Positions 44,401 to 64,000 of a DNA stretch of 64,000 nt are shown one piece after another. Numbering within the stretch: position 1 is the first letter of the stretch; each line of letters starts with the position of its first letter. A model generated the notes under the pieces. That model saw only the letters and a program-made list of their open reading frames with translations, had not been told where the DNA came from and did no database searches. The DNA comes from Bolinopsis microptera (Eukaryota > Ctenophora > Tentaculata > Lobata > Bolinopsidae): positions 5,924,169 through 5,988,168 of the forward strand of contig NC_087079.1 of assembly GCF_026151205.1 (NCBI RefSeq), given 5' to 3'. The position numbers and the translations under genes are program-made.

Positions 44401-47032
44401 ATTATTCTAGTTTTTTCTAGATTTTCCTATATTTTATTCCACCTGTACTGTTAAGTGTAGTTTGTAAGAATTCTAAGGGAAAGGAAACGTTTGGGTCGGG
44501 GATAATCAAAACTCTAAAATGGGAGTGTTAAAATCTAGGAGGTGGTCCGCAGATTGCGTGATGACCGTAAAGGTGTGAAGGTGCCTACTTCTAAACGTCT
44601 CAATAGGTAGGATCTATACATACCTCTAAAATGGGAGTGTTAAGATCTTTGCACATAGAGTATCTAGTAATAAGAAGTTGTTTTCTGGTTGCCTCCACGC
44701 TACACTGTTTTAGTATGGGGTACAAACATGGGTACTGTAATGTAACCTTGTGTTCGCCTGCCTCGTTCCTTTCTAGCCCTGGTCAGGTGGTTAATAGCTA
44801 AACACTCGTGCAGCTATTACTTGGGGGGGGGGGGGGGGGTGTCCGGTATGGTCAATTTAATGTCCTGTGGCGTATCTCCCCCCTATTTATATTGACGGTA
44901 AGATCAATATCTCGGTAAATCTGAGGTAAGTTAAGTATAGATTGCGTCGTATTTAGGGGTGAACGCGAAGTTATGAACTCATAAGATCTACGATTTCTTT
45001 TCAAGTATTATTTAAACTTTAAAAAGATTCAATTTAACATATTCATACCAGTATTCACCTTTAACGAAGTCCTCAGAACAACCTTTTAGCTGCTCAGTTT
45101 TAAAGAACATCGCTGTTTTGTCTTCGTTCATGTTGTTTTGAAACTCAATACCTGACAAGCGTTTATAACTTTGGTAACCATGGTGATAAGAGACAACTAT
45201 TTGAGGGTGTTGTCAAGTTCTCATAAGTATACAATATACAATATACAATATACATGGTATGTTGGTATGTTATATTTATACAGCTCTCTATAGTCTATAG
45301 TCTATAGTCTAAAGAATGTTACCAACCCCTCTGGCCTCTAGCTTTACAGTTATCATAAATAAGCTGTTAGCTGAAGGACAAAATCGAACCAACACAATTC
45401 TTAAATTCTTACCTAAACTACTCATTTTCGAGTTGATTTCTTTGATACGATCCTGTTTTGCCTTTTCTAGGTGTAAACCTACTCTTTTGCCATCACGAAT
45501 AACTCGAGCCAGCAGTCTAACCTGAACAATACAATATACAATATACTTTACAGATATTCAGTTAAAATCACGTGTTGTAAGTCAAGATTCAGTAAGGAAA
45601 ATATCTTTAAATAGTGTAAGTTTAGTGTAGATTTTGCGTGGCTTATATGGTTGATATTATTATTATGTTGATATACGCGGCGTATAATACGTACCTTTTA
45701 CTAGCAAGTAAATGATGTTATATCTCCTGGGATTCGCAAAAAAAATGTGCAACATAATAATCACGATTTATTTTCTACTTTATAAGTAAACATACTGATT
45801 CTGGTGTAGGTGGAGTGTAAGTTTCACCGTAGCTGCACATCACATCAAACACATCCTTACGGGCGCTCATTGCGACACTGAAGTCTGATAACACTCTATC
45901 TGCTTCTACAGCTGCAGGTAATAACGGTGATAAGTTATACTGTGCAGGTATAACGGTAAGTTATAATGTGTATACTGTATAATCATGATAATAGTGAGTT
46001 ATTGGCTTCTTTAACTTGGAGTTTTAGAACACTTTCCCAACCTTTTAAACAACTTTAATTGACTTTCGAAACTGATATAGCAATTCAATGTTCGATTTGG
46101 AGCATAGCTAATTAGTGATTATTTGCAAGTTCACAGTTATGATCAGTGATCCCGTGTGTAACGTGTGATCACGTGTACTGTGTCTTATCAAATGGTACAT
46201 TGTACAATTCTATTTAACAGATAACTTACAAGCATCTCTAACTGCTTTATCAGCTGAAACCTGTGAAGGAAAGTCGTACAAACAGGACAAACTGTCGTAA
46301 TATCTGTGTACTTCTGTCAGCTTGGACAGAGCCTCTGATACCTGCAAATATTGTGAGTAATAGACACAATTAGATTTAAGAATTAGATTAACTGTTTAAC
46401 TTTAAAGAATATCCAATTAACATTCACATCATTTATTTACTGTATTGTATTGTCCGGCAGTTAAATCATAATCCTAGGAAATGTTGCTATATTATATATA
46501 TATAAGTATCTCTTTCTCTTTCACTAAATTCACTTTCCTCACCTTCTCTCCCTGAAGAGCAGATATTTCATCGTACATTCCAGTTGTTTTGTTCATCAAC
46601 TCCTTAACTCCGCCCTCAATATCACCTGCACTCAACGTCCATTTCGTCATCTGAGCCTCCATCGGGATTACCTGGAGTAATAACCACTGGTTATTACTGG
46701 TAATTACTGGTAATTACTGGTTATTAAACAGTTGAGAGATCTAAAAACTGACAAAATCAAGTAGTGAATATAATTTACATGTTATTAAACACATGAGAAT
46801 AATGACAAAACTGAAGCAATGAGTTGAATCTGATTCTAGAAACATTGATAACCCCTGTGCTGATAACAAATAACAGCAAGACATCATCAGCAACTGATCT
46901 TACCAAGGATCTGGATAGAGTAAGAGTAAGGGTGGTAATACGAGGAAATACTGTAGAGGTTGTTGTTATTGTTGGAGTAACACTTGTTGTTAGTCGAGAT
47001 GTTAATACTAACCGACTAACTGACCTTAACAT
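41420..47032 (-). CDS. M3 metallo-oligopeptidase (neurolysin/thimet oligopeptidase) with mitochondrial presequence
   Basis: Twelve exons join in phase: 47032-46904, 46671-46543, 46341-46230, 45911-45796, 45521-45413, 45151-45059, 44772-44624, 44330-44076, 43963-43513, 43045-42865, 42406-42258, 41649-41420; 2103 nt, 700 residues (human NLN 704). HEFGH at about 495-499 is the zinc-binding HExxH of family M3. Other family blocks: [50 protein letters not shown]. It cleaves short peptides. Exon 1 (43 residues, rich in Arg/Ser/Thr, almost no acids) looks like a mitochondrial targeting sequence, which favours neurolysin over cytosolic thimet oligopeptidase. Met47 in exon 2 could give a cytosolic form. 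An acceptor lies 7 nt before the ATG. Introns hold a TTA-flanked MITE and a LINE tail. Confidence 0.93.
42062..42182. mobile_element. 121-bp MITE, TTA target duplication, intron 11 of the M3 peptidase
   Basis: GGGGTCATTCACATATTACG at the left and CGTTATATGTGAACGACCCC at the right are inverted repeats, flanked by TTA on both sides (42059-42061, 42183-42185). The centre has two long poly-C runs. A relative of its right end is at 23951-24002. Confidence 0.7.
44512..44648 (+). mobile_element. LINE 3' tail inserted at the exon 7 donor, with 25-bp target duplication
   Basis: 44537-44610 matches the LINE 3' tail at 7503-7575 (GGTGGTCCGCAGATTGCGTG, GTGCCTACTTCTAAAC, CAATAGGTAG). The flanks are 25-bp direct repeats starting CTCTAAAATGGGAGTGTTAA (44512-44536 and 44624-44648, one mismatch). 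The right copy is the coding end of exon 7, and the GT donor (44622-44623) lies on the insertion side of the boundary. Confidence 0.75.
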
Positions 47033-47642: not shown

Positions 47643-48014
47643 TTACCAAATATGGTAATGTCCTCATGACTTTACCAAATATGGTAATGTCCTCATGACT
47701 TTACCAAATATGGTAATGTCCTCATGACTTTACCAAATATGGTAATGTCCTCATGACTTTACCAAACATGGTAATGTCCTCATGACTTTACCAAATATGG
47801 TAATGTCCTCATGACTTTACCAAATATGGTAATGTCCTCATGACTTTACCAAATATGGTAATGTCCTCATGACTTTACCAAATATGGTAATGTCCTCATG
47901 ACTTTACCAAATATGGTAATGTCCTAATGACTATACCAAATATGGTAATGTCCTCACGACTTTACCAAATATGGTAATGTCCTCATGACTTTACCAAATA
48001 TGGTAATGTCCTCA
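47643..48014 (-). repeat. 29-bp tandem array forming the GTF2H3 3' end, 13 copies
   Basis: In gene sense each unit is TCATGAGGACATTACCATAT then TTGGTAAAG. The first unit includes the last codon and stop (TCA TGA, 48017-48012). Each unit can fold as TTACCA-TATT-TGGTAA. If transcribed, the 3' UTR would carry about 13 small hairpins. Confidence 0.9.
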
Positions 48015-51000
48015 TGACTTCCCGTTCTCAAGTTTCCTTTTACCAGTAACTTTCTTCCCCTTCAACAGAGCAGTAGGTAGTTTAAAGTGAGCATTACAAG
48101 TCATGCACATGGGTCTGAAGTTACAGTAAACAGACATGCAGACTGAACAGACGTAGCCCACATCGGTCATCTTGCTGTGACACTGACACGCTGCCCTGAA
48201 GTCAACCTGAAAACAGTGGTCAAGTGTTAAACATTAAGCAGTGGTCACGTGTTAAACAGTGGTCACGTGTTAAAGAGTGGTCACGTGTTAAACAGTGGTC
48301 ACGTGTTAAAACAGTGGTCACGTGTTAAAACAGTGGTCACGTGTTAAACAGTGGTCACGTGTTAAACAGTGGTCACGTGTTAAAACAGTGGTCACGTGTT
48401 AAAACAGTGGTCACGTGTTAAGCAGTGGTCACGTGTTAAACCAGTGGTCACGTGTTAAAGAGTGGTCACGTGTTAAACAGTGGTCACGTGTTAAACAGTG
48501 GTCACGTGTTAAAGAGTGGTCACGTGTTAAACAGTGGTCACGTGTTAAAACAGTGGTCACGTGTTAAGCAGTGGTCACGTGTTAAAACAGTGGTCACGTG
48601 TTAAAACAGTGGTCACGTGTTAAACAATGGTCACGTGTTAAACAGTGGTCACGTGTCAAAACAGTGGTCACGTGTTAAACAGTGGTCACGTGTTAAGCAG
48701 TGGTCACGTGTTAAACAGTGGTCACGTGTTAAACAGTGGTCATGTGTTAAACAGTGGTCACGTGTTAAACCAGTGGTCACGTGTTAAACAGTGGTCACGT
48801 GGTAAACAGTGGTCATGTGTTAAACAGTGGTCACGTGTTAAACAGTGGTCACGTGTTAAACCAGTGGTCACGTGTTAAACAGTGGTCACGTGTTAAACAG
48901 TGGTCACGTGTTAAACAGTGGTCACGTGTTAAACAGTGGTCACGTGTTAAGCAGTGGTCACGTGTTAAAACAGTGGTCACGTGTTAAACAGTGGTCACGT
49001 GTCAAAACAGTGGTCACGTGTTAAACAGTGGTCACGTGTTAAACAGTGGTCACGTGTTAAGCAGTGGTCACGTGTTAGAACAGTGGTCACGTGTTAGAAC
49101 AGTGGTCACGTGTTAGAACAGTGGTCACGTGTTAAACAGTGGTCACGTGTTAAACAGTGGTCACGTGTTAAACAGTGGTCACGTGTTAAACAGTGGTCAC
49201 GTGTTAAAACAGTGGTCACGTGTTAAAACAGTGGTCACGTGTTAAAACAGTGGTCTCGTGTTAAACAGTGGTCACGTGTTAAACGTTAAAAAGCATTTCA
49301 AGTGAAATTTGAATGTTCTACTAATTATAATAAAACTGTTACGAAGTTCCCCGAATAAATTAATAATGATAAAATAGTGTTTTTGAGCAGGAATTGAGGA
49401 ATTTGTCGTTTTATAACAGTATTTACATTCCTCATTCCATAACAGAGCACATTCCACCGAATTGACGAAAGCAAAAGCACCCACCTTAGCAGCTGGAGGG
49501 GTATGAAAACTCTTCCTAAACTCCACCCCCATCAGGAACACTCCCAACAGATACTGAGTAAGTTTACTGTGCTCCCCCACCCTCACGTACGTTCCTCCTG
49601 TTATCTCGCTAGCTTGCTGTAGGAACGTGGAGTCTTCACCCAACACGCACGAGTCTATAGAGACTTTATTCTTCTGGGCGGCGAAGATGGAGTTCATGAT
49701 GGCCATGTACTGGGATCGGCTATCAGGGGAACCTGGTGTTGGTAGGTAGGGTTAATTATTGAAACATGTACTGGGACCGGCTATCAGGGGAACCTGGTGT
49801 TGGTAGGTAGGGTTAGTTATTGAAACATGTACTGGGACCGGCTATCAGGGGAACCTGGTGTTGGTAGGTAGGGTTAGTTATTGAAACATGTACTGGGACC
49901 GGCTATCAGGGGAACCTGGTGTTGGTAGGTAGGGTTAATTATTGAAACATGTACTGGGACCGGCTATCAGGGGAACCTGGTATTGGTAGATAGGGTTAGT
50001 TATTGAAACATGTACTGAGACCGGCTATCAGGGGAACCTGGTGTTGGTAGATAGGGTTAGTTATTGAAACATGTACTGGGACCGGCTATCAGGGGAACCT
50101 GGTGTTGGTAGATAGGGTTAGTTATTGAAACATGTACTGAGACCGGCTATCAGGGGAACCTGGTGTTGGTAGATAGGGTTAGTTATTGAAACATGTACTG
50201 GGACCGGCTATCAGGGGAACCTGGTGTTGGTAGATAGGGTTAGTTATTGAAACATGTACTGGGACCGGCTATCAGGGGAACCTGGTGTTGGTAGATAGGG
50301 TTAGTTATTGAAACATGTACTGAGACCGGCTATCAGGGGAACCTGGTGTTGGTAGATAGGGTTAGTTATTGAAACATGTACTGAGACCGGCTATCAGGGG
50401 AACCTGGTGTTGGTAGATAGGGTTAGTTATTGAAACATGTACTGGGACCGGCTATCAGGGGAACCTGGTGTTGGTAGATAGGGTTAATTATTGAAACATG
50501 TACTGAGACCGGCTATCAGGGGAACCTGGTGTTGGTAGATAGGGTTAGTTATTGAAACATGTACTGAGACCGGCTATCAGGGGAACCTGGTGTTGGTAGA
50601 TAGGGTTAGTTATTGAAACATGTACTGGGACCGGCTATCAGGGGAACCTGGTGTTGGTAGGTAGGGTTAGTTATTGAAACATGTACTGGGACCGGCTATC
50701 AGGGGAACCTGGTGTTGGTAGATAGGGTTAGTTATTGAAACATGTACTGGGACCGGCTATCAGGGGAACCTGGTGTTGGTAGGTAGGGTTAGTTATTGAA
50801 ACATGTACTGGGACCGGCTATCAGGGGAACCTGGTGTTGGTAGGTAGGGTTAGTTATTGAAACATGTACTGAGACCGGCTATCAGGGGAACCTGGTGTTG
50901 GTAGGTAGGGTTAGTTATTGAAACATGTACTGGGACCGGCTATCAGGGGAACCTGGTGTTGGTAGATAGGGTTAGTTATTGAAACATGTACTGGGACCGG

Positions 51001-54000
51001 CTATCAGGGGAACCTGGTATTGGTAGATAGGGTTAGTTATTGAAACATGTACTGAGACCGGCTATCAGGGGAACCTGGTGTTGGTAGGTAGGGTTAGTTA
51101 TTGAAACATGTACTGGGACCGGCTATCAGGGGAACCTGGTGTTGGTAGATAGGGTTAGTTATTGAAACATGTACTGGGACCGGCTATCAGGGGAACCTGG
51201 TGTTGGTAGGTAGGGTTAGTTATTGAAACATGTACTGGGACCGGCTATCAGGGGAACCTGGTGTTGGTAGATAGGGTTAGTTATTGAAACATGTACTGGG
51301 ACCGGCTATCAGGGGAACCTGGTGTTGGTAGGTAGGGTTAGTTATTGAAACATGTACTGGGACCGGCTATCAGGGGAACCTGGTGTTGGTAGGTAGGGTT
51401 AGTTATTGAAACATGTACTGGGACCGGCTATCAGGGGAACCTGGTGTTGGTAGATAGGGTTAGTTATTGAAACATGTACTGAGACCGGCTATCAGGGGAA
51501 CCTGGTGTTGGTAGATAGGGTTAATTATTGAAACATGTACTGGGACCGGCTATCAGGGGAACCTGGTGTTGGTAGATAGGGTTAGTTATTGAAACATGTA
51601 CTGGGACCGGCTATCAGGGGAACCTGGTATTGGTAGATAGGGTTAGTTATTGAAACATGTACTGGGACCGGCTATCAGGGGAACCTGGTGTTGGTAGGTA
51701 GGGTTAATTATTGAAACATGTACTGGGACCGGCTATCAGGGGAACCTGGTGTTGGTAGATAGGGTTAGTTATTGAAACATGTACTGGGACCGGCTATCAG
51801 GGGAACCTGGTGTTGGTAGGTAGGGTTAGTTATTGAAACATGTACTGGGACCGGCTATCAGGGGAACCTGGTGTTGGTAGGTAGGGTTAGTTATTGAAAC
51901 ATGTACTGGGACCGGCTATCAGGGGAACCTGGTGTTGGTAGATAGGGTTAGTTATTGAAACATGTACTGGGACCGGCTATCAGGGGAACCTGGTGTTGGT
52001 AGATAGGGTTAATTATTGAAACATGTACTGGGACCGGCTATCAGGGGAACCTGGTGTTGGTAGGTAGGGTTAGTTATTGAAACATGTACTGGGACCGGCT
52101 ATCAGGGGAACCTGGTGTTGGTAGGTAGGTTAATTATTGAAACATGTACTGGGACCGGCTATCAGGGGAACCTGGTATTGGTAGATAGGGTTAATTATTG
52201 AAACATGTACTGGGACCGGCTATCAGGGGAACCTGGTGTTGGTAGGTAGGGTTAATTATTGAAACATGTACTGGGACCGGCTATCAGGGGAACCTGGTGT
52301 TGGTAGGTAGGGTTAGTTATTGAAACATGTACTGGGACCGGCTATCAGGGGAACCTGGTGTTGGTAGATAGGGTTAGTTATTGAAACATGTACTGGGACC
52401 GGCTATCAGGGGAACCTGGTATTGGTAGATAGGGTTAGTTATTGAAACATGTACTGGGACCGGCTATCAGGGGAACCTGGTGTTGGTAGATAGGGTTAGT
52501 TATTGAAACATGTACTGGGACCGGCTATCAGGGGAACCTGGTGTTGGTAGGTAGGGTTAATTATTGAAACATGTACTGGGACCGGCTATCAGGGGAACCT
52601 GGTGTTGGTAGATAGGGTTAGTTATTGAAACATGTACTGGGACCGGCTATCAGGGGAACCTGGTGTTGGTAGATAGGGTTAATTATTGAAACATGTACTG
52701 GGACCGGCTATCAGGGGAACCTGGTGTTGGTAGATAGGGTTAGTTATTGAAACATGTACTGGGACCGGCTATCAGGGGAACCTGGTGTTGGTAGATAGGG
52801 TTAGTTATTGAAACATGTACTGGGACCGGCTATCAGGGGAACCTGGTGTTGGTAGATAGGGTTAGTTATTGAAACATGTACTGGGACCGGCTATCAGGGG
52901 AACCTGGTGTTGGTAGGTAGGGTTAGTTATTGAAACATGTACTGGGACCGGCTATCAGGGGAACCTGGTGTTGGTAGATAGGGTTAGTTATTGAAACATG
53001 TACTGGGACCGGCTATCAGGGGAACCTGGTGTTGGTAGATAGGGTTAGTTATTGAAACATGTACTGGGACCGGCTATCAGGGGAACCTGGTGTTGGTAGA
53101 TAGGGTTAGTTATTGAAACATGTACTGGGACCGGCTATCAGGGGAACCTGGTGTTGGTAGGTAGGGTTAGTTATTGAAACATGTACTGAGACCGGCTATC
53201 AGGGGAACCTGGTGTTGGTAGGTAGGGTTAATTATTGAAACATGTACTGGGACCGGCTATCAGGGGAACCTGGTGTTGGTAGGTAGGGTTAGTTATTGAA
53301 ACATGTACTGGGACCGGCTATCAGGGGAACCTGGTGTTGGTAGAAGGGTTAGTTATTGAAACATGTACTGGGACCGGCTATCAGGGGAACCTGGTGTTGG
53401 TAGATAGGGTTAGTTATTGAAACATGTACTGGGACCGGCTATCAGGGGAACCTGGTGTTGGTAGATAGGGTTAGTTATTGAAACATGTACTGGGACCGGC
53501 TATCAGGGGAACCTGGTGTTGGTAGGTAGGGTTAGTTATTGAAACATGTACTGGGACCGGCTATCAGGGGAACCTGGTGTTGGTAGATAGGGTTAGTTAT
53601 TGAAACATGTACTGGGACCGGCTATCAGGGGAACCTGGTGTTGGTAGGTAGGGTTAGTTATTGAAACATGTACTGGGACCGGCTATCAGGGGAACCTGGT
53701 GTTGGTAGGTAGGGTTAGTTATTGAAACATGTACTGGGACCGGCTATCAGGGGAACCTGGTGTTGGTAGGTAGGGTTAGTTATTGAAACATGTACTGGGA
53801 CCGGCTATCAGGGGAACCTGGTGTTGGTAGGAAGGGTTAGTTATTGAAACATGTACTGGGACCGGCTATCAGGGGAACCTGGTGTTGGTAGGAAGGGTTA
53901 GTTATTGAAACATGTACTGGGACCGGCTATCAGGGGAACCTGGTGTTGGTAGATAGGGTTAGTTATTGAAACATGTACTGGGACCGGCTATCAGGGGAAC

Positions 54001-57000
54001 CTGGTGTTGGTAGGAAGGGTTAGTTATTGAAACATGTACTGGGACCGGCTATCAGGGGAACCTGGTGTTGGTAGATAGGGTTAGTTATTGAAACATGTAC
54101 TGGGACCGGCTATCAGGGGAACCTGGTGTTGGTAGGAAGGGTTAGTTATTGAAACATGTACTGGGACCGGCTATCAGGGGAACCTGGTGTTGGTAGGAAG
54201 GGTTAGTTATTGAAACATGTACTGGGACCGGCTATCAGGGGAACCTGGTGTTGGTAGATAGGGTTAATTATTGAAACATGTACTGAGACCGGCTATCAGG
54301 GGAACCTGGTATTGGTAGATAGGGTTAGTTATTGAAACATGTACTGGGACCGGCTATCAGGGGAACCTGGTGTTGGTAGATAGGGTTAGTTATTGAAACA
54401 TGTACTGGGACCGGCTATCAGGGGAACCTGGTGTTGGTAGATAGGGTTAGTTATTGAAACATGTACTGGGACCGGCTATCAGGGGAACCTGGTGTTGGTA
54501 GATAGGGTTAGTTATTGAAACATGTACTGGGACCGGCTATCAGGGGAACCTGGTGTTGGTAGATAGGGTTAGTTATTGAAACATGTACTGGGACCGGCTA
54601 TCAGGGGAACCTGGTGTTGGTAGATAGGGTTAGTTATTGAAACATGTACTGGGACCGGCTATCAGGGGAACCTGGTGTTGGTAGGTAGGGTTAGTTATTG
54701 AAACATGTACTGGGACCGGCTATCAGGGGAACCTGGTGTTGGTAGATAGGGTTAGTTATTGAAACATGTACTGGGACCGGCTATCAGGGGAACCTGGTGT
54801 TGGTAGATAGGGTTAGTTATTGAAACATGTACTGGGACCGGCTATCAGGGGAACCTGGTGTTGGTAGGTAGGGTTAGTTATTGAAACATGTACTGAGACC
54901 GGCTATCAGGGGAACCTGGTGTTGGTAGGTAGGGTTAATTATTGAAACATGTACTGGGACCGGCTATCAGGGGAACCTGGTGTTGGTAGATAGGGTTAGT
55001 TATTGAAACATGTACTGGGACCGGCTATCAGGGGAACCTGGTGTTGGTAGATAGGGTTAATTATTGAAACATGTACTGGGACCGGCTATCAGGGGAACCT
55101 GGTGTTGGTAGATAGGGTTAATTATTGAAACATGTACTGGGATCGGCTATCAGGGGAACCTGGTGTTGGTAGATAGGGTTAGTTATTGAAACATGTACTG
55201 GGACCGGCTATCAGGGGAACCTGGTGTTGGTAGGTAGGGTTAATTATTGAAACATGTACTGGGACCGGCTATCAGGGGAACCTGGTGTTGGTAGGTAGGG
55301 TTAGTTATTGAAACATGTACTGGGACCGGCTATCAGGGGAACCTGGTGTTGGTAGATAGGTTAATTATTGAAACATGTACTGGGACCGGCTATCAGGGGA
55401 ACCTGGTGTTGGTAGATAGGGTTAGTTATTGAAACATGTACTGAGACCGGCTATCAGGGGAACCTGGTGTTGGTAGATAGGGTTAGTTATTGAAACATGT
55501 ACTGGGACCGGCTATCAGGGGAACCTGGTGTTGGTAGGTAGGGTTAATTATTGAAACATGTACTGGGACCGGCTATCAGGGGAACCTGGTGTTGGTAGAT
55601 AGGGTTAGTTATTGAAACATGTACTGGGACCGGCTATCAGGGGAACCTGGTATTGGTAGATAGGGTTAATTATTGAAACATGTACTGGGACCGGCTATCA
55701 GGGGAACCTGGTGTTGGTAGATAGGGTTAGTTATTGAAACATGTACTGGGACCGGCTATCAGGGGAACCTGGTGTTGGTAGGTAGGGTTAGTTATTGAAA
55801 CATGTACTGAGACCGGCTATCAGGGGAACCTGGTGTTGGTAGATAGGGTTAGTTATTGAAACATGTACTGGGACCGGCTATCAGGGGAACCTGGTGTTGG
55901 TAGGTAGGTTAATTATTGAAAATTGCTAAATGCTAATTGACTTAAAGGACCAGTTAACTGAAAAATTTGTAGTCTCCAATTTGGCTAAGATTTAAATCAG
56001 CTGTGACAAACTGGTAAAGAGTCGTATCGCCGAAAGAACCAACTCTCTAGCGTACGTGTAACGCGTGTTATTGCAATAATAAGCTGTGGCCTCGTGACGT
56101 CATAAAGTCCCTCAGTGCGCGCTTGCATAGCGTAATTTACATTACAAATGTTTATCATCGTCAATAAAACACGTGTAACTCACTCAAATTTTAGAATTAT
56201 GACTATTACCCTAGTTCTCCAAAATCCTTATAGTTTTGGCTATCATCCTAACTAAAGGAATAGCTGATTGGATGTACAGTGCTCACGTCATGATTTTAAA
56301 CAGTGATATAGGTTCTTGAACAGTGGCGGGTGAATGTAAGGTTAGAAAGTTTCTGCTATTACAACTTATGTCATGTGTGATAATTTTGGATTGTTTTCAT
56401 TGCTTAATTACACAAACAGGGAGACTGTACCGATTATTTTTCCCCAGTCCATGAAACTCTAACGAATTTAGAAAGGATCTAGATAAGTAGGAGTTTGTTC
56501 AATTCCGATCGAGCAATTATATTTATAGCATAGCGAAATTTCTAAGTTTAATCCGCATGTGTCAGCCAGTACAGGAGACAAGAAGTCTGGCTACTTTACG
56601 GCCGTTCCTCTGGGACCATTAGTAGAAGTAGCTTCTATCAGAACAGTGCCGTGGGAACAGAATTCCCGCCAAAATACCCGGTCTCGGGTCTACCAAATAG
56701 TAATGTACTGATTGGAGTGTACGGTGTGCGGTGTGTTTTGAATTAGACTTACGGCTTACCTAGTTGTTATCCTAATTGCATTATCATCGGTACATAACAT
56801 AAATAAACTACTGGTAAGTTTAAATACCAAGTGCAAACGTGTTCAGTCAATCGACCCACTGAACAACTATAGAATTTCCAAGACCCTATTATTCTCTGGC
56901 CATATATTACGGCACGATCGATTGTTAGATGGCTAAACGACCAACGTTAATCTATTCAATTCTAAAACTATGAGCTAGCACTTTAATCTAAAAATACACT

Positions 57001-59140
57001 TTATATAACTCCTGATTTTTACATTTCACGTAAAACATTGTCGCCACAGGTTGATCATGGACACTAACAGCTTAATTTGAGATAAATGACTTATGAGTTT
57101 CTCTAAAGTTAACTCTAAAGTTGTGTAGTCCAGTCATTTATGGACATTTATGGAAATGAACCTGCAAATGTTCAAATACTCACGAAACTTTGCACAGACC
57201 TTCCCGAAGGTATGAATAAACGATTTTCGTTTGGAGACATTTTTTTGACCATGGAGAAAACCCAGGAGGGCCACGCCCATATTGACCCAATAACGTAACC
57301 GACCCCTTGCTTCTGAAGGTCGTAGAGACTTCAAAATAGGCTTAAACGAAGCCGCATATGCATGTTTATATAGAAGTTATTGAGCAACACATGGCGTAAA
57401 ATCCTTACTTTTCGAGAAATTCGCCAAAAACCATTTTGGGCGTGGTGCTGAGCCCATTTTCGATAGGATCGTGATAGAGTCTTTAGACAGGGTGCAAAAG
57501 AACCGCAATTAGCATATTAATATATGACTTACGAACAAACATATGCCTTAAAGTGCTTACTTTTTCAATTATTGGCGAAAAACTGATTTTCGGTTCCAGA
57601 AATCATGCAAAACTATGGGTATCTGGTAAATTGGGCTATGAAGGCCCTAAAGGTTCTTGAATGTGTGCAAATTGTGCAGAATGGCCATGTTTATATACAA
57701 CTTATGAAGCAACATGTACCCTAAATTACTTACTTTTCGAGTTATTCGGGGAAAAACATTGTATTATGCCCATTTTCTACCTGTAAAATACAGTCTCACG
57801 AGCTCTTCTGCGCGCAAGGGACTTTATGACGTCATCGCCAAAATAATACAAACGCTATTTACACGCGTTAGAGAGCAGTTAGAGATTTAGGAATTTCGAC
57901 TCGTTGCTTAGTTTGCTATTTGTCACAATCTGTCAAAATACGAGGATAACTTTTTTTTCAGTTAACTGGTCCTTTAAGTGATTGGTTACTGTTATTATAA
58001 GAGATGAGGTGGCGTCCAGAAGTGCAGTTGGTATATTTATATGATACTAAAGTTTTGGAGAATGATGATTGGTCAAGTACGGATATGATTTGTGTCAAAC
58101 AGTAAAATAGTAGTAAAATAGTAAACAAATCCTTCATTGATTTTTAAACAGACCTTTCATGACCAGTATTCTGGATTGAAGTATACTTCCAAGAGAAAGA
58201 TTCTTTGACATAACGTTACAGTGACATAGAGCTTTGATCAGTGCGCCACTCAACAGTGAACCTGCAGATTTGACAAATCTGAGCAACATTTCGATAGGTC
58301 TACAATTAAAGATATAGGAAAACTCTCTTATTTAAAGGAATATGAAAAATCGCTCGTTTAAAATTTGCTCTAATCTTTAGTTAATTGATTTCATAAGATA
58401 AAATTAAAATGAAGCTCAGTTTAGAGCCTTGAATAAAGATCTAGTCTGTACGAGCACACCACACAGACAGTACAATCAAGATAACAAGACACACAAACCA
58501 TCAAGTTGTCTGTGCTCCTCAGGGTTATCACACTCCAACATCACATCCTTTATCTTCATCAGTATCGTGGTGTTCACCACATCAAACCCCTCGAACTTGC
58601 CCGCAGTGCTCTCTCCAACCACTAGGTTCTCTTCGTCTGGGTACAGCTTGTAAACTCCCGTGTTCATGTAACCGTATACACTCAACTGTGGAGGAAGTGT
58701 CAGCTTTATTCTACCTTTATTTTGATTATAAATATTGAATAAAGGTAGATTAAATCATATGTCCAGAATAGAGTCTAGCAACCATTGTGATTATTTTATA
58801 GATTTGCATAAATTTGTAAACAAAATCATATTGAACTTAAATTTTTAAGAAACTATATTTAATCCTATATTACTACAGATTCTATGGAGCTATGGAAGCT
58901 TCTAGTAATATCCACCATGTAACTACAGTGCAGAAGCAGGTAATAGTACACAAACACAACAGGTAATAGTACACAAACACCAGTATATTAACAACGAACC
59001 TTATTAAGTGGGCTCTGGAGAAGATGCGCGTTAGCGAGGATTAGAGAGCTCTGGATGACCTCAGTCAAAGAGTGGTTAGCCCACCAGACAGGGTGGAGAT
59101 CCACTACAATAACAAGGAGATTACCCACCCTGTCTCCCAT
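48012..59140 (-). CDS. GTF2H3: TFIIH core subunit p34 (GTF2H3/Tfb4)
   Basis: Five exons join in phase: 59140-59000, 58685-58499, 58261-58154, 49732-49485 and 48206-48012; 879 nt, 292 residues (human 308). Exon 1 encodes NLLVIVVDLHPVWWANHSL, the vWA-type start of p34. Exon 3 holds LLSGALIKALCH and SRILVMKG; exon 4 holds YMAIMNSIFAAQ and QQASEITGGTYVRV; exon 5 holds DFRAACQC and the C4-type zinc-binding YVCSVCMSVYCNFRP with CMTC. p34 pairs with p44 in the TFIIH core, needed for transcription initiation and nucleotide-excision repair. Intron 3 (8.4 kb) and intron 4 (1.3 kb) are mostly tandem repeats, and a third array covers the stop codon. The start is the first ATG of the conserved block; acceptors lie about 46 and 90 nt upstream. 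Confidence 0.93.
48213..49287 (-). repeat. E-box (GTCACGTG) array in GTF2H3 intron 4, about 56 copies
   Basis: Units of 18-20 bp, in gene sense TTAACACGTGACCACTGT, run to within a few bases of the exon 5 acceptor; the acceptor sequence TTGACCACTGTTTTCAG is itself a partial unit. Nearly every copy keeps CACGTG. Confidence 0.95.
49704..55919 (-). repeat. 61-bp array in GTF2H3 intron 3 duplicating the exon 4 splice acceptor, about 102 copies
   Basis: In gene sense each 61-bp unit has 32 bases of intron end (ending ACTAACCCTATCTACC and AACACCAG) followed by 29 bases equal to the start of exon 4 (GTTCCCCTGATAGCC...). The exon itself differs at one base (CGATCC against CGGTCC in the repeats); one distal unit near 55141 has the exon-type base. 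Variants (GGGAC/GAGAC, AGATAGG/AGGTAGG/AGGAAGG, GTGTT/GTATT) mark subfamilies. There are no spacers. Confidence 0.97.
55941..57978. mobile_element. 2.04-kb long-TIR DNA element in GTF2H3 intron 3
   Basis: CTTAAAGGACCAGTTAACTG at the left is perfectly inverted at the right end (57959-57978). Imperfect complementarity continues for about 190 bp, including TGACGTCATAAAGTCCC and a GCGCGC motif in both arms. TGA on both sides could be a 3-bp target duplication. The interior has no transposase ORF; 57339-57760 holds three diverged copies of a 95-bp module also found in the foldback element at 2735-5509. Confidence 0.8.
57339..57760 (+). repeat. Three diverged copies of a 95-bp module
   Basis: Copies start near 57339, 57491 and 57663. 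They share a pattern of TTATAT, ACTTAT, AACATAT, CTAAA, CTTACTTTT and a GCGAAAAAC-type end in fixed order and spacing, with about 60-70% identity by eye. Confidence 0.65.
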
Positions 59141-59621
59141 GGTGTGGGAGTGGCGAGGGAGTGGAGGGGTTAGTTCAGGAGATGAGCTTGGGAGAGGAGG
59201 TGGGGGATAGCAGTGCAGATAATGTCATGTTGGTGTCAAAGTTGGGCTAGAGAGGGATTTTAGTGTTAAATTTTTAAGTATTGTCTAACATCTTATTTTG
59301 TATAAATATAATTGTTAATTTTTTAATTATTGGTGACTACTGAAAACCTATCTGGCAATTTCGATATTTTGTTTATTTTATTTTAAATCAACAACGGGAG
59401 CAAATTTTTTCTGAGCAGTAAAACTAAAACCGATTTTGAAGATGTCAAAGTTTTGCTTAAAAAGGGTAAAACTGGTAAGTTAGAATGGACGGACAATTGT
59501 AAATAAAATTTGGAACTTTAAACCTACAGCAATAAATTACTGATAGTAATAAATTAAGAAAGATCCCCAAAAAACCGCAGATAAAATGTGTTTAAAAACC
59601 ATCACGTTACACTCTTTCACC

Positions 59622-61451
59622 TCAACAAGTGTTTAAAAATTCCAGCAACTTATCTCTACCAGCACACTGCTCGAAACTAGTAACATCACTCTGCTTCAAA
59701 CTACTGACCAGTTCATCGTGTTTGTCCGTAGTTTTCTGCTCGATCAATCTGAGGACAGAGAAAGCACCTCGATTTGTCTTGGCCCAATTAGTGATGTCAT
59801 CCAGGGGGATCTTGCTGGTAACTATGTCATTGAACTGCTTCTGATGGTCTTTGTTCTGCTGGACACTTCTCATGAGGATGTGCATGGTTGTTGTGTCAAC
59901 AAGTGATAGATCACTGGCTAACAGATCAACAATTGCTGTTAAAAGGTCGGTTATGTCACAATTGGCATGAGTAACTGCAGATGTAAGGAGTAAGGTCCTT
60001 GTGTTTTCCATCAACATACTCTCAACATTATCTTTGAAGTTGTCTATGATTCCGGGGGAAGCATAGGTTAAAAGCTCTTTTCTTCTCGCTTCGGGGTCTT
60101 TCTTGGACACACTGTTTGTATCTCCAATCTTCAGAAAGTCAATTATACTGGGAGGGAAAAGTTTAGTTGATCTTGGTGCCAGGATATAGTTTAGCAATAA
60201 TCTTCCACAATGTGACATGGTGATGGTGTCAATGCTTTCCATAATCTCTGATAAGATTGCTTTTTTGAGTAAAACTGTATCATCAACACAATCAAATAAG
60301 GCACACAAAACAAGATAACCGTTTTCGTTCATGCACATGTCCTTGACATGACCCTTGAAGGTTCTGATGATCAGTTTTCTTTCCTTAGCTTTGCTGTACC
60401 ACAAACACCTCATTGCTATCTTGGAGCCTTCTTTAGTGTGAACAAACTTAACAATCTGTTCAATAAGCTTTTCGGACACTAACTCTTGAATGGTTTCTTC
60501 GGTGCCATGAAGGAAATACTGTAACATGAGATGCTGTACAATTATGTGACCTGTGAGTCCCTTTTCTATGAACACCTGGGTGTGGTTTAAAAGTTCTTCT
60601 AAAACCTTTTCTTTCTTATCAGGATACAGTTCTATAACCTTGGTAAAGTGCTCTGACAAAAGATCTCTGTAAAGATATAGCTCTTTTCCGTAGAATTCTG
60701 TGATCATTTCTGTTCTTTCTTTGCTGGTAGCATAGTCGTTGTACATGGTATCAATTACAGTTACAGCCTCTGCGTGAAGTGTAAGTTTCTTGAATTGTCC
60801 TTTCAATGCCTTGAAGATTAGTTTTCTTTGTTTAGGAGAAGTGTTTTTCAGCATGCAGTTTACAGTAAATTTACCATATTTTGCTTTAGATAGCTCACAC
60901 ACATGGGGAAGTAGCTCTTGGACGATGAAATTATTGTCTTCGGATTTTCCAAGTCTTAAGAGAAGTTGGACTACTCGCGCAAGATCATGCTTGAACATGA
61001 GGGACTCTACTTTTCCTTCCATTAACTCCTTAAGCTCTGCAACAATCTCTGCTCGTTTGGAATCAGCAATGTCATTTACTCTGCCTTTTTCCCACAGTGC
61101 TTTTATCTTGGTAAGGTTTTCATATTCATTGTCTTCACAAGCTTTTCTAACCTTTTTCAGAGCTTTCTTCTTCAGAGGTTCTTTTGGCTCTTTGGGTTCG
61201 GATGATTTCCTCTTCTTCGGGTTCTTCTTTTTCTCTTCAAGCGCCTCTTTTCGTTTATCTTGCTTTTCTTTTCTATTTTCTTTTAGTGCTTCCAAAACTT
61301 CTTTAGGAACAAGTGCCTTCTTACCACTTTGTGGAATAGTCTGTTTGCTGGACTTTCTTGTTTTCCCTGCTGCTTTCTTCTTCACAGGGTCTTTCTTCAA
61401 GTCAGTCCTGCCATATTTACCAGATTTTCCGGCTAAAGCTCTCTTGACCAT
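59622..61451 (-). CDS. PUM3: Pumilio homologue 3 (PUM3/Puf6-like) nucleolar RNA-binding protein
   Basis: Single exon, 609 residues. Residues 1-110 are Lys/Glu-rich with strong basic nucleolar signals (KKKNPKKRKSS). From about 120 the protein follows PUM3: FKHDLARVVQLLLRLG, ELSKAKYGKFTVNCMLK, HAEAVTVIDTMYND, TKEGSKIAMRCLWYSKAKERK, FDCVDDTVLLKKAILSEI, GRLLLNYIL and SKKDPEARRKELL, then a CPL-type C-terminus with WAKTNRGAFSVLRLIEQ. PUM3/Puf6 folds into an L-shaped Puf array binding RNA or DNA without the classic PUF code and acts in ribosome biogenesis. Good AG acceptor (ATTTTCAG) 2 nt before the ATG, so a 5' UTR exon or trans-spliced leader is likely. It lies 541 bp downstream of ABCB10 on the same strand. 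Confidence 0.92.
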   Translation of the reverse strand: MVKRALAGKSGKYGRTDLKKDPVKKKAAGKTRKSSKQTIPQSGKKALVPKEVLEALKENRKEKQDKRKEALEEKKKNPKKRKSSEPKEPKEPLKKKALKKVRKACEDNEYENLTKIKALWEKGRVNDIADSKRAEIVAELKELMEGKVESLMFKHDLARVVQLLLRLGKSEDNNFIVQELLPHVCELSKAKYGKFTVNCMLKNTSPKQRKLIFKALKGQFKKLTLHAEAVTVIDTMYNDYATSKERTEMITEFYGKELYLYRDLLSEHFTKVIELYPDKKEKVLEELLNHTQVFIEKGLTGHIIVQHLMLQYFLHGTEETIQELVSEKLIEQIVKFVHTKEGSKIAMRCLWYSKAKERKLIIRTFKGHVKDMCMNENGYLVLCALFDCVDDTVLLKKAILSEIMESIDTITMSHCGRLLLNYILAPRSTKLFPPSIIDFLKIGDTNSVSKKDPEARRKELLTYASPGIIDNFKDNVESMLMENTRTLLLTSAVTHANCDITDLLTAIVDLLASDLSLVDTTTMHILMRSVQQNKDHQKQFNDIVTSKIPLDDITNWAKTNRGAFSVLRLIEQKTTDKHDELVSSLKQSDVTSFEQCAGRDKLLEFLNTC

Positions 61452-61992
61452 CCCTGAAAATTATAGGATCAGCATGATCATTTAAATATTGTACTAGAAT
61501 AGAGGCAGCAAAAAATCATAGATAAGATTGCATGCTCCTAATGGAAAATTTGGTAAATGATTTTCATGAAGAATGTTATAGTAGTTTTCAGGTAGTTATA
61601 AACAGAGACCAGAATGAAGCAATTTAAAATTCGCATATAAAGGACAAAAATATGATTTTATAAACAGTAGCTAGAAGTATTTATATATAAACGCTTGCAG
61701 CTTCTAAAAACTGTATAAAGTTGTGTCAATGGAAAATTAAATGTGTATTATCACATGATGTATTGTTTAAACACTCAAGAATTTTCTAACACATTTGGTT
61801 ATTATGCTTCTCACAGACAAGAAATGGGGAAATTACAACAATATGCAACACAGTCTTTTCCAAATACTAACTCATTTGTTTTATCCGAGACTTAATCAGA
61901 TACAAACGTTTTAACAATTATTCAATTCTTGTAACTAATTTTCGAATTCACAGGCAGGTCTACTAAGGGTCACAAATATTTTAATTGGAATG

Positions 61993-63876
61993 TTAGGAGT
62001 CAAGACTTTTTTCTTGAAGCTTGACTAATTCACTAAACATTCCTCCAGCATTAACAAGAGAATTATAGTTGCCAACTTCTTTAACAACCCCCTTGTCCAT
62101 AACAATAATCTTGTCTGCTTTAATGATGGTGGACAATCTGTGGGCGATGACAATTGTGGTACAATCGATGTTATCTTCTATGTTCTTTAAGACCTTTCCT
62201 TCAGTTGCAGAATCAAGTGCACTGGTAGCTTCATCTAAAATAAGAATGTCTGGGTTTCTAACAATAGCTCTTGCAATAGCAATTCTCTGCTTCTGACCTC
62301 CAGATAAGGAAGACCCTTTATTTCCAACCTCTGAGTGGATCCCATGTTCAAACTCAGCAACAAAAGGAAGGACCTCAGCAATCTCAGCTGCTTTTATTAC
62401 TTGATCCTCAGTCAGATCATCCTGGCAGCCATATGCAATGTTGTAATGAATAGAAGCTGTAAACAAAGGTGGTTCCTGAGATACAATCGATACATGGTTA
62501 GCCAGTTGTTTACTGGGAATGTCCCTGATATTAAAACCTCCGATAGTGATGGCTCCATTTTCACAGTGATACAAACCAGCTAATAGCCATGTCACAGTGG
62601 ACTTTCCACAACCACTTGAACCAACAAGGGCTGTTACTTGGCCCTTTTGAAAAACCTCAGAAAAATCATTCAAAATAACCTCATCAGGACGAGAAGGGTA
62701 TCTGAACTTTACATTCGAAAGCTGTATGTCCTTTGCAAAGCATTCATGTGGTATTGGTTGGCGCAAATCTTGTGGTGGTGCAGTGTCTATAATCTCAAAT
62801 AATCGCTGTCCTGCACCTGCTCCAGCCATCAGTGCACCATATGCCTTGCCCAATCCTGCCACTCCAATACCACTGTACACTGTATAAAGAAGAAATCCTG
62901 TTAATGTTCCTGGTGATATAGATCCTGATAAACTCAATTGATATCCACTGTAAAGAACAACAAGTAGAGCAAAGTTACCGGAACCACCAAGAAATGACCA
63001 GTATAAAGAGTTCACAGCAGCACTCTTGTAGCCAAGAGAAAGAATTTTATTAAGGTGATTACCATATAGACCAATTTCTTTTTCTTCAGCACCAAATGCT
63101 TTAACAACTTTTATTCCAGAAAAACCTTCTTCTGCTCTAGCTGTTGACAGAGCCAAATTATCCTGAAGTTCCTTTGAAATACGGCGCACAATTTTACCAG
63201 CAAAATAGGCAACAATCATAATTGATGGTACAATCAAAGAAGCTCTTAAGGCAAGATCAGGAGCAACATATACCATGAGGCCAATGGAAACAATAGATTG
63301 TCCAAAGGATCTCAAAATATCACTCACATTCTGAGTCAAAACATCCCCTACCAACTGACAATCTGCTGATAAACGATTCACCAACTCTCCTGATGTGGTG
63401 TTGTCAAAATATGGCATATCATTCCTCATTAGTGAAGATAACACATTGAGACGCAAATCTCGAACAACTCTACAACTTGCAGACTGGATAAACCATATTC
63501 TACCAGTGTTTGCTAAAGCACCAATAGCAAATAAGCCAGCAAATCCAAGGCACACTTGTTCAAAATCGAGATTTTGAAGTAAACTGGAACTTTCAGTTGT
63601 ACTGGTCTTGAATATAGCATCAACTGTATGCTGAACACACAATGGCACTGATAAAGTCACAGCAGTACTCACACCCAACAGACTTACAGCAGCCAGACAA
63701 CTGAATTTTTCTGGTGCAAGCAAAGATAAAAGCCTTTTCAAAGATCTGTTCTTTGGTTTTGGTTTCAGCGACATCTTGTCAGTATCACTATTCATGGCAA
63801 TTAAAGTACGTGGGATCCAGATGCGCTTCTTGGTGATGTGATTGATGCTTGAGATGACTTTCAGTCTATTCAGCAT
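61993..63876 (-). CDS. ABCB10: Mitochondrial ABC half-transporter ABCB10
   Basis: Single exon, 627 residues. The first 35 residues are basic and hydroxylated without acidic residues before Asp31, fitting a mitochondrial presequence; Met28 and Met35 are alternative starts. The TM domain (about 58-350) has six predicted helices, with GELVNRLSADCQLVGDVL and EEGFSGIKVVKAFGAE typical of ABCB10. The ATPase domain (about 385-625) has Walker A GSSGCGKST (419-427), Q-loop Q467, signature LSGGQ (524-528), Walker B ILILDEA (544-550) and H-loop H579, all intact. ABCB10 is an inner-membrane exporter linked to heme synthesis and oxidative-stress defence. An in-frame TAA lies directly before the ATG, and acceptor-like AGs lie 4 and 21 nt upstream. 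Confidence 0.93.
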   Translation of the reverse strand: MLNRLKVISSINHITKKRIWIPRTLIAMNSDTDKMSLKPKPKNRSLKRLLSLLAPEKFSCLAAVSLLGVSTAVTLSVPLCVQHTVDAIFKTSTTESSSLLQNLDFEQVCLGFAGLFAIGALANTGRIWFIQSASCRVVRDLRLNVLSSLMRNDMPYFDNTTSGELVNRLSADCQLVGDVLTQNVSDILRSFGQSIVSIGLMVYVAPDLALRASLIVPSIMIVAYFAGKIVRRISKELQDNLALSTARAEEGFSGIKVVKAFGAEEKEIGLYGNHLNKILSLGYKSAAVNSLYWSFLGGSGNFALLVVLYSGYQLSLSGSISPGTLTGFLLYTVYSGIGVAGLGKAYGALMAGAGAGQRLFEIIDTAPPQDLRQPIPHECFAKDIQLSNVKFRYPSRPDEVILNDFSEVFQKGQVTALVGSSGCGKSTVTWLLAGLYHCENGAITIGGFNIRDIPSKQLANHVSIVSQEPPLFTASIHYNIAYGCQDDLTEDQVIKAAEIAEVLPFVAEFEHGIHSEVGNKGSSLSGGQKQRIAIARAIVRNPDILILDEATSALDSATEGKVLKNIEDNIDCTTIVIAHRLSTIIKADKIIVMDKGVVKEVGNYNSLVNAGGMFSELVKLQEKSLDS

Positions 63877-64000
63877 TTACCTAAATCATACATATTCCTG
63901 AAACATATAAAGTAATTAATAATTATGGGTTAAGTCGATTGCGGGGTTAAAACAACCATGGTATTCAAATGTGTGACAATTTTACAAGCTCTCATCAGCA

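Follow-up and report, generated by a model that had tools for sequence, protein, structure and literature searches.

A 102-unit minisatellite across the intron 3/exon 4 boundary of GTF2H3 in the ctenophore Bolinopsis microptera

Minisatellites whose tandem units run across an intron-exon boundary, and thereby repeat a splice signal along with each unit, have been described in amphioxus as "mirage" minisatellites. The cited sections of the respective reports name Adh3, the globin genes BflGb6 and BflGb9, TnC and PGBD5 (PMC3087553, PMC3902484), the last two as further lancelet cases (PMC3902484). According to reverse transcription polymerase chain reaction, these arrays do not seem to interfere with splicing, while the Adh3 array is reported to be somatically unstable (PMC3087553). 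Here, we describe an array in the gene GTF2H3 of the ctenophore Bolinopsis microptera, located in a stretch of 64,000 nucleotides (nt) of contig NC_087079.1 (positions 5,924,169 to 5,988,168, forward strand) that is referred to as the window throughout. As in the amphioxus cases, for which regular mRNA is reported, its tandem units span an intron-exon boundary and repeat the splice signal (PMC3087553, PMC3902484); this assignment is made from one assembled haplotype.

With regard to the composition of the unit, the array resembles that of BflGb6, where the 3' end of an intron and the 5' part of an exon are likewise combined (PMC3087553). On the other hand, it stems from a ctenophore and consists of 102 units of 61 base pairs (bp), whereas six and three units of 150-160 bp are given for the globin cases, and the junction sequence AG/GT occurs in all 102 units but in many, not all, amphioxus units (PMC3087553). 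Expanded units at exon-intron boundaries are also described for minisatellites in human segmental duplications; these average four units of 30 bp, reside in duplicated gene families and partly change introns, while the gene studied here is single-copy and its intron older (PMC2812944). A duplicated segment holding AG/GT is furthermore the starting point of intron gain by tandem duplication (PMC3087553; PMC4974935), from which the present locus differs in that no new intron is found and another ctenophore already has non-exon sequence in front of the corresponding exon. Among the literature matches listed, titles and abstract openings contain no mirage case from a ctenophore.

The GTF2H3 gene and its repeated acceptor

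A five-exon model on the minus strand yields an intact Tfb4/GTF2H3 protein of 292 amino acids, with a Tfb4 domain recognized by Pfam at an E-value of 6.5e-78. All exons are based on the gene model plus a protein match in the animal's own genome.

59000..59140, minus strand: GTF2H3 exon 1, coding part from the ATG
58499..58685, minus strand: GTF2H3 exon 2
58154..58261, minus strand: GTF2H3 exon 3, 108 nt, missing in NCBI isoform X2
49704..55921, minus strand: 61-bp tandem array of 102 units (Tandem Repeats Finder; unit split; 102 own-genome matches, all here)
49485..49732, minus strand: GTF2H3 exon 4, 248 nt, first base 49732 directly after the last, true acceptor; joined in the database proteins P0001 and P0003
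48012..48206, minus strand: GTF2H3 exon 5, stop codon TGA at 48014-48012

The gene spans more than 11 kb of the window and has introns of 314, 237, 8,421 and 1,278 nt. Intron 3 follows the exon 3 donor, the exon ending at 58154, and is made up of 174 nt, a transposon of 2.04 kb, 18 nt and the array, which accounts for 73.5% of its length. The searched genome comprises 264,652,675 bases (264.65 Mb) on 232 contigs. Here, the GTF2H3 protein produced five matches, one per exon at a single locus, and all 102 matches of the 61-bp unit fell inside this array, such that no dispersed introner-type copies were detected outside it; both searches provide lower bounds. Exons 3 and 4 both begin with GTTC and do so in the same phase.

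For positions 49704-55921, Tandem Repeats Finder reported a period of 61 with 102.0 copies, 97% matches and a score of 11778. When the minus strand was split at CCAGGTTCCCC, 102 units resulted as well, with their first exon bases running from 55890 (first unit) to 49732 (last unit) and a spacing of 61 nt in 98 and of 60 nt in three of the 101 intervals. The array is far beyond chance. A preliminary description of this DNA had counted about 102 copies and regarded each as a complete copy of the 3' splice site, and both statements are borne out: every unit combines 32 nt from the end of intron 3 with the initial 29 nt of exon 4, AG/GT is present in 102 of 102 units, and the unbroken spacing of 60-61 nt leaves no place for an intervening unit without it.

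Compared with the consensus, 98 units are free of insertions and deletions. Their branch-like motif reads TAACTA in 80 and TAATTA in 18 cases, the true last acceptor belonging to the smaller group. Six substitution sites were found in these units, with departures from the consensus in 39, 18, 14, 7, 5 and 2 of them, both variable sites of the exon part being silent in the exon 4 frame. The mean pairwise identity of the units amounts to 97.9%. The first unit carries an insertion or deletion and the last unit departs from the consensus at three positions, with the same variants occurring within the array, too. Such variation, with neighboring units hardly more similar than after shuffling, fits thorough homogenization or blurring by polishing. 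As had been noticed earlier, the exon-type base also occurs in one distal unit: a G-to-A change at unit position 49 is common to the last unit and unit 13 of 102 (acceptor at 55159). The gene conversion between exon and array that had been suggested on this basis is neither supported nor needed, because unit 13 matches the last unit at only one of its three departures and the change is of the CpG-to-CpA type, which can recur by mutation. The exact length of the array depends on the assembly. The published assembly for B. microptera, probably identical to the one analyzed here, was built from PacBio data with wtdbg2, after which gaps were closed, haplotigs purged and the sequence polished with Illumina reads (PMC10232365, assembly description).

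Acceptor choice in GTF2H3

In the following, the 101 acceptors upstream of the last one are termed decoys. When exon 3 is joined to the first decoy, translation runs through ...GSPDSRSQYMFQ to a stop codon after 11 codons, which agrees with the preliminary description, as does the outcome of gene model and decoy translation that full-length protein arises from the last copy only.

Use of the last copy is supported by two database proteins whose junction lies at the last acceptor, in one case with omission of exon 3. The first, P0001, comprises 292 amino acids and is 99% identical to the window protein, with two residues different. Its source contig measures at most 1,305 bp and, as the gene extends over more than 11 kb, should represent spliced RNA; we take the source label "lgn" to stand for assembled public reads. 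P0001 may originate from a close relative or an allele, and perhaps from a sister species, since the same two residues occur in a genomic fragment, P0079, together with a diverged intron 4. The second protein, P0003, is the NCBI GTF2H3-like isoform X2 from B. microptera, equals the window translation minus exon 3 and passes from exon 2 directly into exon 4, again via the last acceptor. When the protein ending at a decoy was used as query, two proteins among 35 candidates were returned, neither of which has the ending of a decoy product, although such a product could be hidden, or missing for other reasons, as the search covered predicted proteins clustered at 90% identity.

Taken together, we consider it probable that the array is a tolerated minisatellite of the mirage type in the only GTF2H3 gene found in the genome, that exon definition selects the acceptor proximal to the exon, and that the array itself serves no function. 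Its origin would lie in the tandem duplication of 61 bp spanning the intron 3/exon 4 junction, which already existed; the resulting units would then have been amplified and homogenized, probably by slippage or unequal exchange. Next to an intron of 8.4 kb, exon 4 would be recognized across the exon, so that the acceptor closest to the exon 4 donor would win. The last acceptor is set apart by its distance of 248 nt to this donor, while an exon of no more than 500 nt would result from only four of the 101 decoys. In the cited part of a transcriptome study, data on alternative sites indicate that the site closest across the exon is favored in the long-intron architecture (PMC9225289). Transcripts spliced to a decoy would stop after 11 codons and would then probably be degraded. 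Decay is generally expected for transcripts in which a stop codon precedes an exon junction by a long distance, and it is therefore expected here, where the stop precedes the exon 4/5 junction in this way. A contribution of RNA structure that hides the decoys was dropped, as folding revealed no unusual fold, neither for two units (z -0.68) nor for the last unit together with exon 4 (z +0.62).

Several points weigh against this explanation. The NCBI isoform X2 skips exon 3 in frame (36 amino acids), and since it is the sole B. microptera protein found, splicing around intron 3 may be disturbed. P0001 may be derived from a sister species, whose array may differ. In most decoys (80 of 98 indel-free units carry the common motif), the branch-like motif comes closer to CTAAC than it does in the true acceptor. 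For 3' sites, the cited part of the study describes the upstream preference under exon definition as only "significantly reduced" (PMC9225289). Finally, adjacent units show no clear excess of similarity over shuffled orders, with 292 of 2000 shuffles doing as well, and this near-random order runs counter to simple local amplification, which predicts neighbors that are alike.

Ctenophore relatives and neighboring repeats

Relatives were compared through predicted proteins. P0129, encoded on a 188-kb contig of another ctenophore, contains 46 codons that run straight into exon 4. It is without exon 3 residues, from which we infer that it constitutes an open frame on genomic DNA instead of a spliced model. 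The longest run that these 46 codons have in common with the translated array amounts to four residues, as opposed to 25 in the corresponding segment of the window, and an array next to exon 4 is hence absent from the 46 codons. The presence of non-exon sequence before exon 4 indicates that the intron was already there, with no array beside exon 4.

GTF2H3 contains two further arrays and, within intron 3, the transposon mentioned above.

48234..49284, minus strand: 18-bp tandem array in intron 4, about 57 copies, separated from exon 5 by 28 nt (Tandem Repeats Finder; single unit in a relative)
47643..48020, minus strand: 29-bp tandem array, 13 copies, starting from the last two codons, the stop codon region being repeated into the 3' flank (Tandem Repeats Finder, sequence)
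55940..57979, strand not assigned: 2.04-kb transposon with 26-bp terminal inverted repeats and TTAA at both ends, in intron 3, directly upstream of the 61-bp array (inverted repeats, family search)

All three arrays of GTF2H3 are situated at exon edges. Neither the two further arrays nor the adjoining transposon, the rarer branch-like motif of the last acceptor or the amphioxus precedent had been part of the preliminary description. The 18-bp array occupies 1,051 of the 1,278 nt of intron 4. Its unit together with the acceptor, TTAACACGTGACCACTGTTTTCAG followed directly by GTTGAC, translates to LTRDHCFQVD and is present in about 57 copies here, but in one copy in P0123 (111-kb contig of a relative), which reads NLTRDHCFQ and then enters exon 5. 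When P0079 and P0123 are joined, intron 4 of the relative or relatives would measure about 201 nt, as against 1,278 nt in the window, bearing in mind that both proteins differ further on and may belong to different species. Acceptor regions so appear to have seeded local tandem expansion twice in GTF2H3, and the relative, with its one copy of the intron 4 unit, shows how such arrays start. The 18-bp unit was also compared with the exon 5 junction as such, but their resemblance was rejected as not significant, as 412 of 1000 shuffles were as good.

The transposon family search gave 708 candidates, of which 40 were scored; these were 97-100% identical over a 300-nt end piece, this copy included, a family that we call young. 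TTAA was also seen at the one visible end of three other copies. Such TTAA targets suggest a piggyBac-like element.

In 20 sampled 10-kb stretches of the genome, 53 arrays were present that account for 9.9% of the bases (summed lengths) and include six arrays of at least 1 kb; for the sister ctenophore Hormiphora, 13% tandem repeats are stated in the cited part of the report (PMC8527503). As long minisatellites are common in this genome, an array spanning a splice site is less surprising than it would be in a repeat-poor one. A crude coding score at the edges of 64 arrays (11 from the window and 53 from the 200-kb sample), restricted to the best 45 of 739 frames, provided no convincing further splice-site array; this survey says nothing on rarity, because two of four GTF2H3 exon pieces scored near zero as well. 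In the next downstream gene, a 26-bp unit occurs 2.1 times at 45913-45970, directly before what appears by eye to be an exon acceptor, and is perhaps a two-copy acceptor duplication. On the other side, two neighboring long open frames that look intronless lie on the minus strand at 59620-63880, presumably encoding an ABC transporter and a Pumilio-type protein as judged by eye.

Alternative explanations and significance

Among the alternatives, a dosage rheostat, in which many transcripts are spliced to decoys, stopped early and degraded such that array length tunes the level of GTF2H3, fares best, but is unlikely. It would be consistent with an acceptor in every unit, all leading to the same stop, and with the common branch-like motif of the decoys, which resembles CTAAC more closely than the motif found in the last unit. 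The decoy-ending protein was not found among the 35 candidates, though degraded RNA would leave no trace there. Furthermore, for nearly all decoys the distance to the exon 4 donor exceeds the usual exon size, and there is no sign of conservation, another ctenophore being without an array at exon 4. Nothing was seen in favor of the earlier proposal that GTF2H3 output depends on removal of the array.

A still lower probability is attributed to an assembly product, i.e., to long-read consensus and short-read polishing having expanded or blurred what were just a few real units. The use of wtdbg2, gap closing and Illumina polishing in the published assembly (PMC10232365, assembly description) would allow for this, as would the occurrence of six substitution sites only in 98 units and their order close to random. 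However, 6.2 kb are within the reach of long reads, and long minisatellites are common both here and, according to the cited part of the report, in Hormiphora (PMC8527503).

Two further possibilities involve trans-splicing of leaders, a process common in ctenophores according to the cited part of the Hormiphora report (PMC8527503). The Hormiphora leader itself gave no match in the B. microptera genome when up to three mismatches over 38 nt were allowed. A pattern of the 17-nt leader 3' end plus GT matched 23 times (at most one mismatch) as opposed to five times for the reversed control, and seven of the 23 matches, including all four exact ones, were located within 98 kb of one contig on the plus strand.

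G000:C13, 12811471-12894453, plus strand: candidate spliced-leader RNA genes L038-L041 (pattern match, common flanks)

These four candidates share a leader ending in ACAAATTAATTTGAG, followed by a GT donor and conserved downstream sequence with an Sm-like TCTTTTGG stretch. L044 and L045, found elsewhere in the genome, are devoid of the common flanks. Judged from these sequences, the units of the array could also meet a leader.

It is very unlikely that the array forms a splicing sink set by its length, with units competing for the exon 2 or exon 3 donor and the spliced leader and an array length that is unstable among individuals and cells determining the ratio of full-length TFIIH p34, p34 without exon 3 and short products. 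Slightly less credible again is a sink for trans-splicing, in which leaders are captured at the acceptors of the array and RNAs that are short and capped result, while the last unit gives rise to a C-terminal piece of GTF2H3 from Met155. Apart from the candidate leader cluster, this would be in line with the unit ending in ATG, which at the last unit opens an in-frame reading of 138 amino acids, and with P0122 (EukProt, 135 amino acids, other species), which starts inside exon 4 and continues through exon 5 but may be a clipped gene model. On the other hand, no RNA joined to a leader was encountered, and the ATG of a decoy reads just M-F-Q before a stop. A search with the C-terminal part retrieved 27 proteins of 33 candidates; among the 11 sequences inspected (P0079 included), the other exon 4 fragments from Met155 enter or stop at intron 4, as genomic open frames do. 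Apart from the observations named, no sign of leader use at the array emerged. Recursive splicing, by which each decoy junction rebuilds AG/GT and is re-spliced to the next unit up to the last, would be served by the GT that follows AG in every unit but is barely conceivable, since GTTCCC agrees with the GTRAGT consensus at none of the positions +3 to +6 and none of the four GT contexts of the unit resembles a good donor.

A tolerated mirage-type minisatellite thus remains the probable explanation for the repeated acceptor of GTF2H3. While the kind of phenomenon is already known, its occurrence is extended to a ctenophore, far from amphioxus, and with about 101 near-identical competitors lying before the true acceptor, the gene puts the choice of 3' splice sites to an extreme test in nature.

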